In this document: positions 4,717 to 15,754 of the stretch, one piece after another
Layout of the letters: each line of letters starts with the position of its first letter
Numbering within the stretch: position 1 is the stretch's first letter
From: an uncultured Pelagibacteraceae bacterium
GTDB lineage: Bacteria; Pseudomonadota; Alphaproteobacteria; Pelagibacterales; Pelagibacteraceae
Length of the DNA: 33,944 nucleotides
NCBI GenBank assembly: GCA_902577575.1
Contig: CACGZQ010000007.1
Coordinates: 1-33,944, forward strand
Direction: 5' to 3'
Notes under the pieces: model-generated
The model's input: the letters and a program-made list of their open reading frames with translations, nothing else
Databases searched by the model: none
Told to the model about the DNA's origin: nothing
Made by a program: the position numbers and the translations under genes

Positions 4717-4760
4717 AATTATATTTTTGAAAGATAAACGTGAGAAAACCCAGAAATTTA

Positions 4761-4796
4761 GTTAGTGTTTAAGGCTTTAAATGCCTCACTTCTAAC
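4761..4796 (-). promoter_or_regulatory. Leader hairpin upstream of rpsL
   Basis: An imperfect inverted repeat in the predicted rpsL leader. Two four-base arms pair (64-67 with 87-90, and 72-75 with 83-86), separated by a four-base bulge, with a further three pairs outside (61-63 with 94-96). A competing outer pairing uses 61-65 with 92-96. The loop is seven A/T bases. No T run follows on the minus strand, so it does not look like a terminator. It starts about 9 nt after the predicted transcript start and ends 44 nt before the rpsL ATG. Function unknown; control by a ribosomal protein is one possibility. Confidence 0.3.
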
Positions 4797-4811
4797 ATTC
4801 AAAAATGCCGT

Positions 4812-4839
4812 AAATTAGCATTGAATTCAAAAAAGTCAA
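4812..4839 (-). promoter_or_regulatory. Sigma-70-type promoter for rpsL-rpsG-fusA-rpsJ...
   Basis: On the minus strand a TTGACT -35 (4834-4839) and a TAATTT -10 (4812-4817) are 16 nt apart. The -10 is preceded by TGC, giving an extended -10. It lies between the rpoC stop and the rpsL start, the place where the str genes would need their own promoter. The predicted start near 4805 would give a leader of about 90 nt. AT-rich sequence produces chance matches, but the -35 and the extended -10 together are better than background. Confidence 0.55.
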
Positions 4840-4864
4840 TATTTAAAGGATTTATCTGTCTGCT

Positions 4865-7800
4865 TTATGCTGTCTGTTCAGGTCCAGTTTGCGCGGTTTC
4901 TAGCTGCTGTTTTTTTAACTCTTCAATTCTTCTTTTATCTTGTTCTCTGGCCTCTTTATCCCATTGAATTTTAGTCAGTCCTGTACCAGCCGGTACTAGT
5001 CTTCCGACTATAACGTTTTCTTTAAGTCCTTCTAATGTATCGGTTTTTCCTTTTATAGATGCGTCAGTTAATACTCTAGTAGTTTCTTGGAAAGAAGCTG
5101 CTGAGATAAATGAATTTGTTTGTAAAGAAGCTTTTGTTATACCTAATAAAACTCTCTCATAACTTGCTATTTTTTTCTTTTCTTTTTTTAAGTTTTCATT
5201 AATCAAATTAATGTCAAGAAGATCTATGACTTCACCTGTTAAGAGTTCTGAGTCACCTGGATCTTTAATTTCTACCCTTTTTAACATTTGTCTTACTATA
5301 GTTTCGATATGTTTATCATTTATGACAACTCCTTGAAGCCTATAAACTTCTTGAACTTCTGTAACAAAATACTCTGTTAATTTCTCTACACCCAAAATTC
5401 TTAAAATATCGTGTGGTGCTGGGCTTCCATCTAATAAATATTCACCTTTTTTAATCTTTTCGCCCTGATTGAAATTAACATGTTTTCCTTTTGGAATAAG
5501 ATAATTAGAAGTTTCCCCACTTGAAGAAACTATAGAAATTTTTTGTTTTCCTCTAACCTCTTTGCCAAATTCGATTACACCATCGTTTTCAGCTATTATT
5601 GCGCTATCTTTAGGCCTTCTAGCTTCAAATAACTCTGCAACTCTTGGTAATCCTCCTGTGATATCTTTTGTTTTTGAGGTTTCTTTTGGCAATCTAGCTA
5701 GCACATCGCCTGCAGAGATTTTTTGTCCATCTTTTACTGATAAAATTGTATCAGGGACAAGGTAATATCTTGCTTCATTGCCATCCGCTTTTTTTATAAT
5801 TTCTCCTTTTTCATTTCTAAGAGTAATTCTCGGTTTTAATTCTGAATTTTTCAATGACGATTTCCAGTCTGTAACTGATTTTGATGACAAGCCAGTTGCG
5901 TCATCAAGTGTTTCAGTTAAAGAAGTTCCTTCCATTAAATCCATATAATTAGCAATACCGCTTGTTTCAGCGATAACTGGAAGTGTATAAGGATCCCATT
6001 CTGCAATTTTTTTTCCAACATCTATGGTATCCCCATCTTTAAAAAATAATTTGGAACCATAATTAACTTTGTAAATAGCTAATTGTCTTCCATTTTCATC
6101 TTCGATGCTAAGCTGAGTATTTCTTCCCATAACTATCGTATTTTTTTTTGAGTCCTCGATTAAGTTTTTATTTATAATTTTTAATTTTCCTTTACTCTGT
6201 GAAATTATTTGCGACTCTTCTTTAATTTGAGCTGTTCCGCCAACGTGGAAAGTTCTCATGGTTAATTGAGTACCAGGCTCTCCAATCGACTGAGCAGCAA
6301 TCATACCGACAGCTTCACCAACGCTTACTAATTTGCCTCTTGCTAAGTCTCTGCCGTAACTCATCGCACAAACTCCTCTTGTCGATCCACAAGTAATAAC
6401 TGAATAAACATTCACGGATTTTACCCCTGCAGCATCGATTTTTTCGCAATCGTTTTCATCAATTAACTTCTCTTTTTTAATAATAATTTCTCCTGTTACA
6501 GGATTTTTAATATCTTCAGCTATAACTCTTCCTAAAACTCTTTCAGATAAACTTACTAAAATATTTCCACCTTCGATAATTTCAGAAATTGTTACTGAAG
6601 ACTTTGTCTTACAATCACACTCCTTTTTAGTAATTTGAACATCTTGTGCCACATCACATAATCTTCTGGTTAAATAACCTGAATTTGCTGTTTTTAAAGC
6701 TGTATCTGCAAGACCTTTTCTAGCACCGTGGGTTGAGTTAAAATATTCTAGTACAGATAAACCTTCTTTAAAATTTGCAATAATTGGTGTTTCAATAATT
6801 TCACCCGAAGGTTTAGCAATAAGTCCTCTCATGCCTGCTAATTGCTTCATTTGTGCTTGAGAACCTCTAGCTCCCGAGTCCGCCATCATATATACCGAGT
6901 TAGTTTCAATTCTGTCATTGTCATAAACCTTTTCAGCTGACGAAATTTCTTTCATCATTTCGTTTGCTACTGTATCTGTACATTTTGACCAAACATCAAC
7001 AACTTTATTATATTTTTCACCTCTCGTTATCAGGCCATCTGAATATTGTTTTTCATATTCTTCAATTTGTTTTTTTGTACTATTTATTAAGTTTTCTTTT
7101 GTCTTAGGAATAAGCAGATCATCTTTTCCAAATGAAATACCAGCTTTGAATGCGTGTTTGAAGCCTAAAGTTTTTATTCTATCGCAGAAAATGACTGTTT
7201 CTTTTTGACCACAATATCTAAAAATAGTATCGATAACTTCAGAAACATTTTTTTTAGTTAATAATTTATTAACAAGACTGAAATTAATATCTTTATTTAA
7301 AGGTAGTAGATTTGCTAATAAAAATCTTCCCGCTGTACTTGTGTATTTCTCTAATATAATATTACCATTAGAGTCGAGTGTCTTAAATGTAGAAATAATT
7401 TTTGAGTGCAAACTAATTGATTTGTTTTCTAAAGCATGTTCAATTTCCTCAACCGTTGAAAATATTCCACTAGGTTTTTTGTCGTTATCTTCTGATGCCT
7501 GAGACAGATAATAAATGCCAAGTACAATATCCTGGCTAGGAACTATTATAGGTTTACCATTTGACGGGCTTAGAATATTGTTTGTAGACATCATTAAAAC
7601 TCTAGCCTCAAGTTGAGCTTCTAAACTCAAAGGAATATGCACTGCCATTTGATCTCCATCAAAATCTGCATTAAAAGCGGCACAGACTAGTGGATGTAGT
7701 TCAATAGCATTACCCTCAATCAGTTTTGCTTCGAATGCTTGAACTCCTAATCTGTGTAAAGTTGGTGCTCGGTTCAAAAGAATTGGGTGTTCTCTAATAA

Positions 7801-9055
7801 TATGTTCTAAAGAGTCCCAAACTTCACTTTTTTCTTTTTCAACTAATCTTTTAGCTTGTTTAATTGTTGTAGCCAATCCAAGTTTGTCTAATCGAGCATA
7901 TAAAAATGGTTTGAATAGCTCTAAAGCCATTTTTTTTGGTAATCCGCACTGATGCAATTTAAGTTCGGGTCCTACAACAATTACCGATCTACCAGAATAA
8001 TCTACTCTTTTCCCAAGTAAATTTTGTCTAAATCTCCCTTGCTTCCCCTTAAGCATTTCAGCTAAAGATTTTAAAGGTCTTTTGCCAGTGCCTGTTATTA
8101 CTCTTCCCCTTCTCCCATTATCAAACAAAGCGTCAACTGACTCTTGCAACATTCTTTTTTCATTTCTCACTATTATGTCAGGAGCTTTTAGATCTAAAAG
8201 TCTTTTTAGACGATTATTTCGATTTATAACTCTTCTGTATAAATCATTTAAATCTGATGTGGCAAATCTACCGCCATCTAAAGGAACTAATGGTCTTAGT
8301 TCTGGCGGGATGACTGGCACTGATGTTAAAATCATCCACTCTGGCTTATTACCAGAGGAAATGAATGACTCTATAAGTTTTAACCTTTTGATTGTTCTTT
8401 CTTCTGTAACTTTTGACTTAATCTCTTCAAGAGACTCTCTTAATTTTTTTTGCTCCTTTTTTAAATCTAGACTTAAAAGTATTTCTCTTACGGCTTCAGC
8501 GCCAATACCGGCTGTGAAAGCATCTTCACCAAATTCTTCTTGTGCTTTTAATAATGATTCTTCAGAGATTAGTTGTCCTTTTTTAAGTGTAGTTAACCCT
8601 GGTTCAATTACAATAAAACTTTCAAAATACAATACTTTTTCAACCTCTTTCAATTTCATATCTATTGATAAAGCAATTCTACTTGGTAAAGATTTTAAAA
8701 ACCAAATGTGTGCTACAGGACAAGCTAAATCAATATGACCCATTCTTTCTCTTCTCACATTCGATTTAGTAACTTCAACACCACATTTTTCACATATGAT
8801 ACCTCTAAATTTCATTCTTTTGTATTTTCCACACAAACATTCATAATCTTTAACTGGTCCAAATATTCTTGAACAAAATAAACCATCTTTTTCTGGTCTA
8901 AAAGTCCTATAGTTTATTGTTTCTGGTTTTTTAATTTCTCCATAAGACCAAGATTTAATTTTTTCAGGACTAGCTAATGTAATCTTAATACTGTCGAAAT
9001 TTGTTTCCTGTGTTACGCTTTGATTTTCTAAACTTTTTGATAAATTTTTTTCCAT
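4865..9055 (-). CDS. rpoC: RNA polymerase subunit beta'
   Basis: Largest RNAP subunit, holding the catalytic magnesium. 1396 residues (E. coli 1407). The first zinc site is intact (Cys 73, 75, 88, 91). The active-site motif NADFDGDQM is at 462-470, with Asp 464, 466 and 468 as metal ligands. The [16 protein letters not shown] segment, from the bridge helix/trigger loop region, is at about 925-940. The second zinc site is unusual: Cys 813, 889 and 896 are in place, but the expected fourth Cys in the C-A-x-C-Y-G block is Ser 899, read directly as AGT. An additional Cys is present at 815. It starts 2 nt after rpoB. The C-terminus is a charged tail rich in Glu and Gln. Confidence 0.98.
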
Positions 9056-9057
9056 AA

Positions 9058-12000
9058 TTAATTTAACTCTATATTTAATCCTAAAGCTCTTATTTCTTTA
9101 ACTAACACGTTAAATGACTCTGGCACACCTGACTCGAAGTTATTATTTCCTTTTACTATTGTTTCGTAAACCTTTGTTCTACCCGCAACATCGTCTGATT
9201 TTACAGTAAGTATTTCTTGCAGTGTATACGATGCTCCATATGCCTCTAAGGCCCAAACCTCCATTTCACCAAATCTTTGTCCACCTAGTTGTGCTTTACC
9301 ACCTAAAGGCTGTTGAGTAACTAAGCTGTATGGTCCCGTCGAACGGGCGTGAATTTTATCCTCAACTAAATGATTTAATTTTAACATATAGATAATTCCA
9401 ACTGTCACAGGTCTATCAAACCTCTCACCAGTTTGGCCGTTCCAAAGATTTGTTTGGCCAGAATTTGGAAGTTCGGCTAAATTAAGCATTTCTGTAATAT
9501 CTTTAGTGCTGGCCCCATCAAATACTGGAGTCGATATAGGAACCCCATTTGAGAGATTTTCCACCAATTCAATTATTTCCTTATTTGTTAATTTACCAAC
9601 AACATTATTGTAATAAGTTTCACCATAAATTTCTTTTAGTTTTTTTTTTATTTTTTCAACGTTTTGTTCAAAACTTTTTTGATATTGCTTTATTTGATCA
9701 CCCAGCTCCGAACAAGACCAACCTAAATGTGTTTCAAGGATTTGACCGACATTCATACGGCTAGGCACACCTAACGGGTTTAAAACTATATCCACGGGTT
9801 TACCGTTATCCATATATGGCATATCTTCAACAGGAACAATCTTACTTACAACTCCCTTATTACCATGTCTTCCGGCCATTTTATCTCCTGGCATTAATCT
9901 TCTTTTTACAGCAACAAAAACTTTTACAACTTTCATTACTGTGGGTAGTAAATCATCTCCTTGTTGTATTTTAGCCACCTTATCATCAAATCTAGCTTTT
10001 ATATCGTCTGAGGCATTATCAAATTGATTTTTTAATTTTTCTAAATCATTATTTATTTCTTGTTTCTGCATAGAAAACTTCCAAAAATCCTTCAAAGATA
10101 AGTTTTCAAAATCATTCTTATTTAGAGTTGTTCCAGGTTTAAGATTTTTAAATTGTTTTGATATACTTTGACCATTTAATAAATCAATAGCTCGAAATTT
10201 AATATTTCTATTTAAAATTTCTTCCTCAACTTTTTTATCTTCTTGTACTGACTCTATTTCAGCTCTTTCTATAGCTATAGATCTTTCATCTTTTTCAATA
10301 CCGTGTCTATTAAATACCCTTACATCAATTACTACTCCTGTGCTTCCTGAGGGTAATTTTAAAGATGAGTCTCTTACATCTGTGGCTTTTTCTCCAAATA
10401 TAGATCTCAATAATTTTTCTTCGGGGCTTGATGACGTCTCACTTTTAGGTGTAACTTTACCAACTAAAATATCTCCAGGTTTAACTTCTGCGCCTACATA
10501 AACAATACCGGATTCATCTAGATTTCTTAAACTCTCTTCGCTAACATTTGGGATATCTCTTGTTATTTCTTCCGCTCCCAATTTTGTATCTCTAGCCATT
10601 GACTCGTATTCCTCAATATGAATTGAAGTGAATACATCATCTGTTACACATCTTTCAGAAATTAAAATTGAGTCCTCAAAATTATATCCTTGCCAAGGCA
10701 TAAAAGCTACTGTCACATTTTTTCCTAACGCAAGTTCACCTAATTTGGTTGCTGGACCATCTGCAATGATATCACCTTTTTTTATTTTATCGCCAACTTT
10801 AACTAAAGGTTTTTGATTTATACATGTATTTTGATTTGATCTTTGAAATTTTGATAAGTTATATATGTCTACAGCAGACTGTGATAAATCTGTAACGTCT
10901 GTAACTTTAACTACAATACGCTTTCCATCAATTTTATCTACAACACCATTTCTTTTAGCTACAATTGTAACTCCCGAGTCTAATGCTACATCTGACTCTA
11001 TGCCTGTTCCAACTAAAGGAGACTCTGGTTTTAGCAAAGGAACCGCTTGTCTCATCATATTTGAACCCATCAAAGCACGGTTTGCATCATCATTTTCTAA
11101 AAAAGGTATCAATGCAGCAGCAACTGAAACTAATTGTTTAGGAGAAACGTCAATAAAATCAATATTTTCTTTGTTAGCTAATTCAAAATTTAAATTTTTT
11201 CTACAAGGAACCAATTCCTCTACAAAATTACCATTACCATCTATCTTTGAATTAGCTTGAGCAATTGTAAACTTCTCCTCCTCAATAGCTGACAAGTATT
11301 TTATCTCTGATGTAACTTTTCCATTTGTTACTTTTTTGTAAGGACTTTCTATATATCCAAATTTGTTAACTCTACAATATGTTGCTAAACTATTAATTAA
11401 ACCAATATTTGGACCTTCTGGAGTTTCTATTGGACATATTCTACCATAGTGAGTTGGATGAACATCTCTAACTTCAAATCCTGCTCTTTCCCTAGTTAGA
11501 CCTCCTGGTCCTAATGCTGAAATTCTTCTTTTGTGTGTAATTTCTGAAAGCGGATTTGTTTGGTCCATAAATTGTGAAAGTTGAGATGTTGCAAAAAAAT
11601 CTTTTAATGAAGTGGTTATTGGTTTTGCGTTTATTAGGTCTTGGGGCATAGCTGATTCTATCTCTAGAAATGTGGACATTTTTTCTTTTACAGTCCTCTC
11701 CATTCTTAAAAGACCTATCCTAAACTGGTTTTCAACTAATTCACCAACTGATCTAACTCTTCTATTGCCTAAATGGTCTATGTCATCAACTTCTCCCTTA
11801 CCATCTCTTAAGTCTAGCATGAATTGAATTATTGATATTATATCGTTTGTCTCTAAAATGGTTTTTTTTGAGGAAGTATTCAAATTTAACTTTGAATTTA
11901 GTTTTACCCTTCCAACTTCAGATAAATCATACCTCTCTTTTTTAAAATATAAATTATTAAAAATTTCTTCAGCTATTTCTACTGAAGGAGCTTCTCCAGG

Positions 12001-13149
12001 CCTTAAAACTTTATATATATCACTAAGTGCATCAGATTTATTTGAATTCTTGTCAATTTTTAATGTTTCTAAAATATAGGGGCCCTTATTTATTGGATCA
12101 ATGTTTACGATATTAAGTTCTTTCTCGTTTTGGCTGATTATTTTTTCAAGTTGTTCTTCTGTCATATCAAAACCAGCTCCTACAATTATATTGCCGTTAC
12201 TATCTTTGACATCTTTAGCCAAATAACTACCTAATAACTGCTCATTAGAAATTAATATTGACTGCAGACCCTTTTCTTGAAGCTTTTTAGCAATAATGAG
12301 ATTCAATCTTTCATTCTTTGATAAAACTTTTTTGTTATTTTTAGAGTCTATTAAGTCGTGTGATAATTTAATTGGTCTTTTAAAGTTTTCAGGATTGAAA
12401 CTTGTTTTCCACGATTTAGTTTCTTTATCAAAAGTATATTTACTTGTGTTGTAAAAAGTTTCAATTATCTTAGTTTTACTATAGCCTAATGCAGCTAGGA
12501 TAGTTGTTATAGGTAATTTTTTTTTTCTATCTATTCTAAAATATAAAATATCTTTTGGATCAAACTCAAAATCTAACCACGATCCTCTACTTGGTATGAT
12601 TCTGCAATTAAAAAGTAATTTACCACTCGCATGTGTTTTGCCTTTATCGTGATCAAAGAAAACTCCAGGACTTCGGTGCATTTGATTTACAACAACTCTT
12701 TCAACGCCATTAGTTATAAACGTAGCGCTTGGTGTCATTAGCGGTAGGTCACCAATAAATACTTCCTGTTCTTTTGCTGAAAGAATTTGTTTTGTGTTAT
12801 TTTCCGCGTCTATATCGTACACAACGAGACGTAATACAGCTTTTAATGCAGCAGAGTAAGATAAACTTCTTTGCTTACATTCAATGACGTCAAATTTTGG
12901 TTTTTCTAATTTATATGAAACATATTCTAAAGTTGATTTATCATTACCGTCTTCGATAGGAAATATGCTTTTGAAAACTTTATCTATACCTTTTGAAAGT
13001 TCGTTTAGCTGATCAGTTAAAGATTTTGACTCAAGAAACTCATTGTATGAATTTTTTTGTACTTCTATAAGGTTTGGGATAGATAAGCCCTCAGCTAATT
13101 TTCCAAAATTTTTTCTTATGTTTTTCTTTTGAGTAAAAGATAATTGCAT
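9058..13149 (-). CDS. rpoB: RNA polymerase subunit beta
   Basis: RNAP beta subunit. I prefer the ATG at 13147-13149 ([13 protein letters not shown]) to a TTG one codon upstream, giving 1363 residues. The rifampicin region at about 521-548 (SQLSQFMDQ, then [12 protein letters not shown]) matches the rifampicin-sensitive consensus at the usual resistance positions. One nearby residue differs: the Asn that follows MDQ in E. coli is Thr here. The conserved blocks [29 protein letters not shown] and [18 protein letters not shown] are present. It is separated from rplL by about 60 nt containing a hairpin with a T-rich tail, and no Shine-Dalgarno sequence is visible. rpoC follows after 2 nt. Confidence 0.98.
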
Positions 13150-13156
13150 CAAATAT

Positions 13157-13189
13157 ATAAAAATTATTACAAGTGTTACCTTATAATAA
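13157..13189 (-). terminator. Attenuator-like hairpin between rplL and rpoB
   Basis: On the minus strand a 10-bp stem (positions 13164-13173 with 13180-13189, one G-U wobble) encloses the six-base loop GTAACA and is followed at once by TTTTTATATATTT. This has the form of an intrinsic terminator, with an AT-rich stem. It ends 14 nt before the rpoB ATG. In E. coli a partial terminator at the same place sets the ratio of L7/L12 to RNA polymerase, so partial readthrough is the natural reading. That role is inferred; the hairpin could instead be an RNase processing site. Confidence 0.5.
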
Positions 13190-13210
13190 ATTGTATTCTC
13201 TTAATTTTGT

Positions 13211-13582
13211 TTACTTTAATTCTACTTTAGCTCCAGCTGCCTCAAGTTTTTTCTTAAATTCTTCGGCATCTTTTTTAGCAACACCGCTCTTAATCTCTTT
13301 TGGTGCGCCCTCAACTAAATCTTTTGCCTCTTTTAAACCTAAACCAGTTATAGCTCTAACTTCTTTAATTACGTTTATTTTTTTGTCACCAGCAGCCGCT
13401 AAAAAAAGAGAGAATTCTGATTTTTCCTCTCCTGCTGGTGCTGCAGCACCTCCTGCTGGAGCAGCTGCTACTGGTGCTGCTGCTGTAACTCCCCATTTTT
13501 CTTCAAGTTGTTTAGACAGCTCCGCTGCTTCTACAACAGTTAAAGTTGAAAGTTCGTCAATAATTTTATTTAAATCTGCCAT
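13211..13582 (-). CDS. rplL: Ribosomal protein bL12 (L7/L12)
   Basis: The multi-copy stalk protein that recruits translational GTPases to the ribosome. 123 residues. The N-terminal dimerisation helices are followed by an Ala/Pro/Gly hinge (about residues 33-52, with [18 protein letters not shown]) and the C-terminal GTPase-contact domain containing [13 protein letters not shown] and [13 protein letters not shown]. An AGGA Shine-Dalgarno lies about 7 nt before the ATG. It follows rplJ by 15 nt. L12 is needed in several copies per ribosome, which fits an attenuator just downstream that would lower rpoB relative to rplL. Confidence 0.98.
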
Positions 13583-15229: not shown

Positions 15230-15754
15230 TTAATTTTTCTCCACTTGGTTAAATTCTAAATCTACCGGGGTTGCTCTACCAAATATAGAAACTGAGACTT
15301 TAAGTCTAGATTTTTCTTCATCTATTTCCTCAATTAAACCATTAAAAGATGCAAAAGGGCCGTCGCAAACTTTGACTTTTTCACCAATTTCGAAACTTTG
15401 GCCTGTTTTTTGTGTAACGGCACTTTCTGAAACTTGGCCAAGTATTCGTTTTATTTCATTATCTGAAATAGGAGTAGGTTTATCAGCAGATCCTAAAAAA
15501 CCACTGACTTTTTGTAAATTTTTAATCAAATGATAAATTTGTTTAGTTAGATCTATTTTTATTAAAACGTAACCAGGAAAAAATTTTTTTTCTTTTTTGG
15601 TTCTTTTGCCTTTTTTAACCTCAGTAACATGATGGGTTGGAACTAAGATCTCCTCTAAATTAGAGGATAGTTTATATTTTTTTAGCTCTTCTTTTATAGC
15701 CTCTACAACTTTTTTTTCAAAACCAGAGTATGCTTGAACGATGTACCAATTCAT
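15230..15754 (-). CDS. nusG: Transcription antitermination/elongation factor NusG
   Basis: NusG binds the beta' clamp through its NGN domain and links RNA polymerase to Rho or to ribosomal S10 through its KOW domain. 174 residues, standard. The N-terminus MNWYIVQAYSGFEKKV and the central FFPGYVLIKIDL mark the NGN domain (about 1-105). GEKVKVCDGPFASFNGLIEE near 122-141 is the KOW motif. It lies between secE and rplK with zero-nucleotide spacers on both sides. Its partners S10 and beta' are encoded in the same gene cluster. Confidence 0.98.
   Translation of the reverse strand: MNWYIVQAYSGFEKKVVEAIKEELKKYKLSSNLEEILVPTHHVTEVKKGKRTKKEKKFFPGYVLIKIDLTKQIYHLIKNLQKVSGFLGSADKPTPISDNEIKRILGQVSESAVTQKTGQSFEIGEKVKVCDGPFASFNGLIEEIDEEKSRLKVSVSIFGRATPVDLEFNQVEKN

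Follow-up and report, generated by a model that had tools for sequence, protein, structure and literature searches.

The short spacer between rplL and rpoB in SAR11 bacteria encodes an RNA hairpin whose pairing on the sense strand is under selection in the genus of the genome analysed here and in a second genus of the same family together with its near relatives. By analogy with E. coli, this hairpin probably lowers polymerase output. From its position and the E. coli parallel, we tentatively read it as an intercistronic step-down element that separates rpoBC from rplL and to which a weak partial terminator was added in the first of these genera, a reading with slightly less than an even chance of being right.

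Selection for pairing in the rplL-rpoB hairpin

The window, the whole analysed stretch of 33,944 nt, is one contig of an incomplete SAR11-type genome (681 kb, 64% complete). It carries a minus-strand gene run of nusG, rplK, rplA, rplJ, rplL, rpoB, rpoC, rpsL and rpsG, in which rplL (13211-13582), encoding ribosomal protein L7/L12 (Pfam PF00542, E = 3.8e-29; PF16320, E = 6.1e-20), is followed downstream by rpoB for the RNA polymerase beta subunit (9058-13149; Pfam Rpb2 domains, best E = 3.9e-138) and rpoC for the beta' subunit (4865-9055; Pfam Rpb1 domains). Between the TAA stop of rplL (13213-13211) and the ATG of rpoB (13149-13147) we measured a spacer of 61 nt (13150-13210, minus strand), in agreement with the length of about 60 nt given in a first-pass annotation of this DNA. 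From the tight gene spacing, we infer that these genes form one transcript. The annotation had also placed nusG in that transcript, and the gene is indeed encoded upstream on the same strand (15230-15754; PF02357, E = 3.1e-28). Further downstream, the 148-nt rpoC-rpsL spacer (4717-4864, minus strand) corresponds to the site for which Meyer et al. 2009 (PMC2704228) describe the SAR11 rpsL motif; a search of this spacer against Rfam 15 gave no match even at E ≤ 1.

RNAfold predicted a 10-bp stem in the rplL-rpoB spacer of the window, with positions 13189-13180 (5′ arm) paired with 13173-13164 (3′ arm) around a 6-nt loop (13174-13179), all on the minus strand. The hairpin spans 13189-13164 and leaves 14 nt to the rpoB ATG, which are filled by the U-rich tail UUUUUAUAUAUUUG (13150-13163); the U-tract UUUUUAUAUAUUU, a trait of the genus of the window, lies directly 3′ of the stem. 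The fold and the coordinates thus reproduce the stem, the loop, the T-rich tract and the distance to rpoB as first annotated, and the description of the stem as almost entirely A-U holds as well, with eight A-U pairs, one G-C pair and one G-U pair among the ten. The minimum free energy was -10.3 kcal/mol over 67 nt (z = -2.9), and 3 of 200 shuffled sequences folded as well. Rfam 15 returned no match to the spacer at the gathering score, and the three matches obtained at a relaxed threshold were far below it.

To collect relatives, we searched genomes for L7/L12, which gave matches in 107 of 151 genomes of the genus, in 229 of 297 of the family and in 30 of 30 further genomes; the genomes without an rplL match (44 of 151 and 68 of 297), many of them incomplete, were not scored. 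Spacers fetched from part of the matching genomes yielded 165 distinct family spacers including that of the window, after leaving out a second window copy (L001; L002 was counted), the duplicates L129 and L141, and L153, which contains N. In the sister family, 30 genomes were searched, 24 had a match and 20 spacers were fetched. We refer to the genus of the window as g1 and to the other genera of its family as g2-g12 and g14. Alignment A1 is a plain MAFFT alignment of 95 g1 spacers that omits the divergent L078, L079 and L093, and alignment A2 holds 47 spacers (23 from g4, 3 from g9, 1 from g7 and 20 named SAR11 records), from which the other genera and L138, a weak spacer of g4, were left out.

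All 98 distinct g1 spacers, including that of the window, form a hairpin with dG ≤ -4, and the observed energy was reached by 13 of 1960 shuffles. Stem covariation among relatives, the check that the first-pass annotation had called for, was found in both alignments. In A1, compensatory double changes occurred at 12 of 14 pairs, a count that 16 of 500 shuffles also attained (mean 9.3); the four remaining measures, among them the 137 double-change cells (shuffled mean 38.6), were reached by none of the 500. The covarying columns include 22-31, which hold the 5′ arm of the window, and covariation extends to the 3′ arm. In A2, 7 of 9 pairs had double changes, with 42 double-change cells compared to 11.8 in shuffles. 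Because the aligned spacers are related, these counts do not represent independent events; controls with one arm slid by 1-3 columns retain the relatedness, yet far fewer of their cells pair, with 46-56% versus 92.3% for the true register in A1 and 15-51% versus 95.5% in A2.

On the coding strand, G-U pairs greatly outnumbered A-C pairs, by 129:19 in A1 and 48:4 in A2. Because a DNA palindrome would lack such a strand bias, the G-U excess shows that the RNA of the sense-strand transcript is under selection, and the sense-strand hairpin is thus selected for pairing in g1 and in g4 with its near relatives. Folding energies were lower for the sense than for the antisense strand in 86 of 98 spacers of g1, 19 of 24 of g4, 5 of 8 of g3 and 5 of 6 of g5, and in just 3 of 12 of g2, 2 of 5 of g6 and 2 of 4 of g12; because of this unevenness across genera, support for the strand is firm only for g1 and g4.

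The loop (A1 columns 32-39) varies in letters and length among relatives, and no conserved unpaired motif was found inside the structure. At the base of the stem in g1, the first U's of the tract also pair with upstream A's and lengthen it (columns 18-21 with 50-55). Separately, an A/T box directly follows the rplL stop (13198-13210, minus strand; ACAAAATTAAGAG in the window, ACAAAATTTAAGAC as genus consensus). Its columns 4-9 are 92-98% identical in A1, and the box as a whole (columns 4-14) exceeds most of the stem in conservation, although the consensus leaves it unpaired. On visual inspection, the A/U base of the stem is complementary to the AAAATTT of the box, which could take part in a competing fold or be a cleavage site.

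Distribution of the hairpin within and beyond SAR11

A hairpin with dG ≤ -4 was present in 152 of the 165 distinct family spacers. It occurred in every spacer from g1 (98/98), g3 (8/8), g5 (6/6), g6 (5/5), g7 (1/1), g9 (3/3), g10 (1/1), g11 (1/1) and g12 (4/4) and in 23 of 24 from g4, and was weak or absent in g2 (2/12), g8 (0/1) and g14 (0/1). The median stem comprised 14 pairs in g1 and 6-10 in g3, g5, g6, g7 and g9-g12. All 20 fetched spacers of the sister family also form a hairpin, with the observed value reached by 8 of 400 shuffles; these are single-sequence hairpins, as RNAalifold returned no consensus structure for a MAFFT alignment of the 20 spacers.

SAR11 rplL-rpoB spacers were 36-71 nt long across the family and the sister family. 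In the 152 family spacers with a hairpin, the stem started 16.4 ± 3.2 nt after the rplL stop and ended 9.6 ± 2.7 nt before the rpoB ATG. Start codons were placed by alignment to the rpoB of the window and are misplaced in a few rows (e.g. L142, L151, L292 and L302-L304). Most stems of the sister family ended about 20 nt before the rpoB start, compared to about 10 nt in the family of the window. In most of the sister-family rows (L291-L310), the last 20 nt or so before rpoB consist of a AGGGCGAATAYACATTA-like stretch placed between the hairpin and the start.

Covariance models built from A1 and A2 (R1 and R2) were used to search for hairpins of related sequence. R1 had no match below E = 1 among 49 sources from other genera. 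Against 45 sources, R2 recovered three spacers from g6 (E = 0.002-0.018) and, weakly, one from g2 (E = 0.08); 21 of the sources were g1 loci, and in none of these did it find the rplL-rpoB spacer. We therefore rejected the idea that the genus groups share a homologous hairpin sequence; because the letters of the hairpin differ between groups and R1 has no match across genera, position and structure are the basis for its continuity from group to group.

Two 400-kb samples, one from a same-genus genome (G021) and one from a g4 genome of the same family (G219), served to judge how rare such an element is. The spacers of the window, G021 and G219 sit in the alignments behind R1 and R2 and match by construction; the informative result is that nothing else in the two samples matched well, the next matches elsewhere having E-values of 1.7 and 0.66. 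With a simple purpose-made gene caller, median codirectional spacers were 1 nt in G021 and 3 nt in G219, which bears out the earlier statement that nearly all spacers are a few bases long for these samples of relatives rather than for the window's own genome. Codirectional spacers of 40-80 nt had a hairpin with dG ≤ -6 in 4 of 26 cases in G021 and in 3 of 37 in G219. Three of these in G021 and two in G219 were terminator-like, with a GC-rich stem of -17 to -22 kcal/mol and a U-tract, and the remaining one in each sample was the rplL-rpoB spacer.

Outside SAR11, the best 80 of 581 loci included 49 with both genes, of which 46 had spacers of approximately 131-507 nt and three had short ones (10, 59 and 59 nt); one of the three short spacers (L285) forms a strong hairpin. 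We also searched 20 alphaproteobacterial genomes no larger than 1.7 Mb. Both genes were recovered from 15 of them; the spacers ranged from 6 to 386 nt, and the short ones (6, 25, 29 and 52 nt) had no hairpin. Strong hairpins of unrelated sequence are present in the 59-105-nt spacers of three other alphaproteobacteria, L285 (AG-313-N13), L322 and L327, where the same solution was perhaps reached independently.

The U-tract and its terminator character

We scored a U-tract as at least 6 T in 8 nt, allowing the first of these positions to lie anywhere between 3 nt within the stem and 2 nt past its end, and terminator strength with a d'Aubenton-Carafa-type score. A U-tract was present in 76 of 98 g1 spacers versus 1 of 67 from other genera. 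The g1 spacers without it comprised 12 of 13 in the divergent set L084-L096 and ten others. The terminator score was above zero for 62 of 98 g1 spacers (median 11, maximum 36), for 1 of 67 from other genera and for 0 of 20 from the sister family; the window scored +4.5.

Compared with other gene ends, the rplL end ranked 6th of 95 in G021 (25.4), below five GC-rich ends (38-64) and above three further positive ends (9-22). In G219, it ranked 26th of 123 (-40), with nine ends positive (11-60) and the best six of them GC-rich at 49-60. As a yardstick, convergent-gene ends scored above zero in 0 of 10 and 1 of 22 cases. The stem of the window departs from the GC-rich stems of intrinsic terminators in having one G-C pair in ten, and a terminator scan had no match at the spacer because it asks for three G-C pairs.

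A FastTree tree with 132 tips was built from L7/L12 and the RpoB N-terminus. The sister family forms its earliest branch, and g1 is joined to g2 (support 0.997) and then to most of g3 (0.966), several deeper nodes being weak. Because the genus with the U-tract is nested in the family tree beside g2 and g3 and the hairpin is distributed more widely, the hairpin most simply predates the terminator role: it would be old, with the U-tract gained in g1, the alternative being repeated loss elsewhere. Of the 42 sampled g1 tips, 23 carry a U-tract, and the branch order inside g1 has a support of 0.013 at its base, so that we make no claim as to when inside the genus the tract arose.

The attenuator proposed in the first-pass annotation is therefore upheld in part. 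Taken as the whole function of the element, it would be a partial intrinsic terminator, as in E. coli, that releases a share of the polymerases before rpoB. The selected RNA hairpin, the U-tract and the positive scores in most g1 spacers speak for it, as do the rank of the rplL end in G021 and its location at the same junction as the E. coli attenuator, which is described in the accessible part of PMC4670729. Outside the genus, however, the hairpin is kept with hardly any U-tracts or positive scores and thus does not resemble a classical terminator there; the divergent g1 spacers mostly lack the tract, five GC-rich gene ends of G021 are stronger than the AU-rich stem, and the score of the window is marginal. 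Factor-dependent or U-poor termination is possible. Because pure termination leaves the order-wide hairpin unexplained, we rated it below the step-down reading and consider it unlikely as the sole function.

Possible function and known systems

The rplL product is needed in several copies per ribosome, and rpoBC is needed far less. A ribosome on a stop codon reaches approximately 12-15 nt past it, and the stem begins approximately 16 nt downstream of the rplL stop, which leaves room for the hairpin to fold just clear of a ribosome terminating there. Folded between the genes in this position, the step-down element may hinder the re-initiation of terminated ribosomes on the rpoB start, which lacks a Shine-Dalgarno (SD) sequence, and could thereby uncouple rpoB from the heavily translated rplL. 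In g1, the window included, the later-gained U-tract would add weak intrinsic termination, with part of the transcripts ending before rpoB. In its most specific form, in which the U-tract-free hairpin found across the order is a translational insulator of rpoB from rplL that was converted in place to a weak terminator in one genus, this proposal is doubtful; if true, a change of mechanism would have been caught at the balance point between ribosomes and RNA polymerase. Because the spacings to the rplL stop and to the rpoB start are about equally tight, they are compatible with a role at either gene.

An SD 4-mer at -20 to -5 of rpoB was present in just 5 of 98 g1 spacers. Such 4-mers precede only 13% (g1) and 17% (g4) of called genes (L170-L209), and because starts without SD are the rule in these genomes, its lack at rpoB is not special. 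AGGA-like purines occur just upstream of the hairpin, at approximately -40 to -50 from rpoB, in L146, L150, L154, L156, L160 and L161 of g4 and in L103 and L109 of g9, as though the stem kept an SD-like site away from the start. We rejected an SD bridged by the hairpin as a general rule, as these letters are confined to part of g4 and two g9 spacers, with none in g5, g6 and g12 and hardly any in g1.

We also considered mRNA processing or stability, in which the AU-rich spacer would be cut and the hairpin would protect rplJL mRNA at its 3′ end or rpoBC mRNA at its 5′ end, giving the two parts different half-lives. Against this stand a distance to the rpoB start that is as tight as that to the rplL stop and, for RNase III specifically, median stems of 6-9 bp in several genera, which are short for this enzyme. 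The conservation of structure rather than sequence and the variable loops are what an exonuclease barrier would show, and in g1 the hairpin is closely preceded by the A/T box, which is unpaired and highly conserved. The corresponding spacer of E. coli carries a site for RNase III, according to the consulted part of PMC2777011. On balance, we judge processing improbable as the main role.

Feedback by a protein such as L10-L12 or RNA polymerase that binds the hairpin as an autogenous operator would suit this position, and ribosomal protein operators are common according to the sections of PMC2704228 consulted. This is very unlikely in view of loop and stem letters that drift within g1 and differ between genera, no conserved unpaired motif in the hairpin and the lack of an Rfam match. 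Short inverted repeats are common in AT-rich spacers such as this one, but a protein site on DNA or mere chance was ruled out, with next to no probability left, by the covariation, the shuffles and the G-U excess. A promoter scan of the spacer gave one 9-of-12 match, the first hexamer of which falls in the loop, and such matches were at background (37 found versus 31.7 expected).

The step-down reading matters in that the rplL-rpoB junction helps to set the amount of RNA polymerase relative to ribosomes. In SAR11, this junction has shrunk to approximately 55 nt with one structured element retained by compensatory change, which suggests that even a streamlined genome profits from retaining a step-down here and that the mechanism behind it is free to change. 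The division into lineages that carry the U-tract and lineages that lack it offers a natural comparison of termination and non-termination, for which 60-nt reporter inserts could be used.

Our literature search, which had most subscription papers outside its reach, found no study of termination in SAR11 and no account of an rplL-rpoB hairpin there. In a term search of the available main text of Naville and Gautheret 2010 (PMC2965389), the words rpoB and rplL were absent; the accessible parts of PMC13236596 and PMC6131387 and a term search of PMC4538822 held nothing bearing on the junction, and in the consulted portions of PMC5371410 and PMC9032294, work on the E. coli junction appears merely as a reference. 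The screen of Meyer et al. 2009 ranked 'Ca. Pelagibacter ubique' spacers longer than 100 bp, so that the rplL-rpoB spacer of approximately 55 nt lay outside it, and the junction is absent from Table 1 of that article (PMC2704228, consulted in part). The SAR11 hairpin is thus best filed as a variant of the known E. coli rplL-rpoB junction that is itself unreported in the literature searched.

Within SAR11, it resembles the cis-acting structures with covariation described in the same sections of Meyer et al. 2009 (PMC2704228), the rpsL motif and the rhtB element, the latter being a hairpin that has poly-U after it in roughly half of the cases. Intrinsic (Rho-independent) terminators of SAR11 share with it the position after a stop codon and, in g1, the U-tract, but the best of them have GC-rich stems (five scoring 38-64 in G021 and six scoring 49-60 in G219), in contrast to the AU-rich stem at rplL-rpoB. 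As described in the parts of the articles available, the E. coli junction has an attenuator that decouples ribosomal protein and polymerase expression (PMC4670729) and an RNase III substrate (PMC2777011), and an internal promoter serves rpoBC (PMC12083536). The rplJL-rpoBC genes of E. coli and SAR11 have in common the gene order, the junction, a hairpin-forming RNA within it and a proposed expression of less rpoBC than rplL. They differ in that E. coli has a 319-nt spacer with two activities reported in the portions consulted, whereas SAR11 has 36-71 nt with mostly one AU-rich hairpin and, in one genus, a U-tract.
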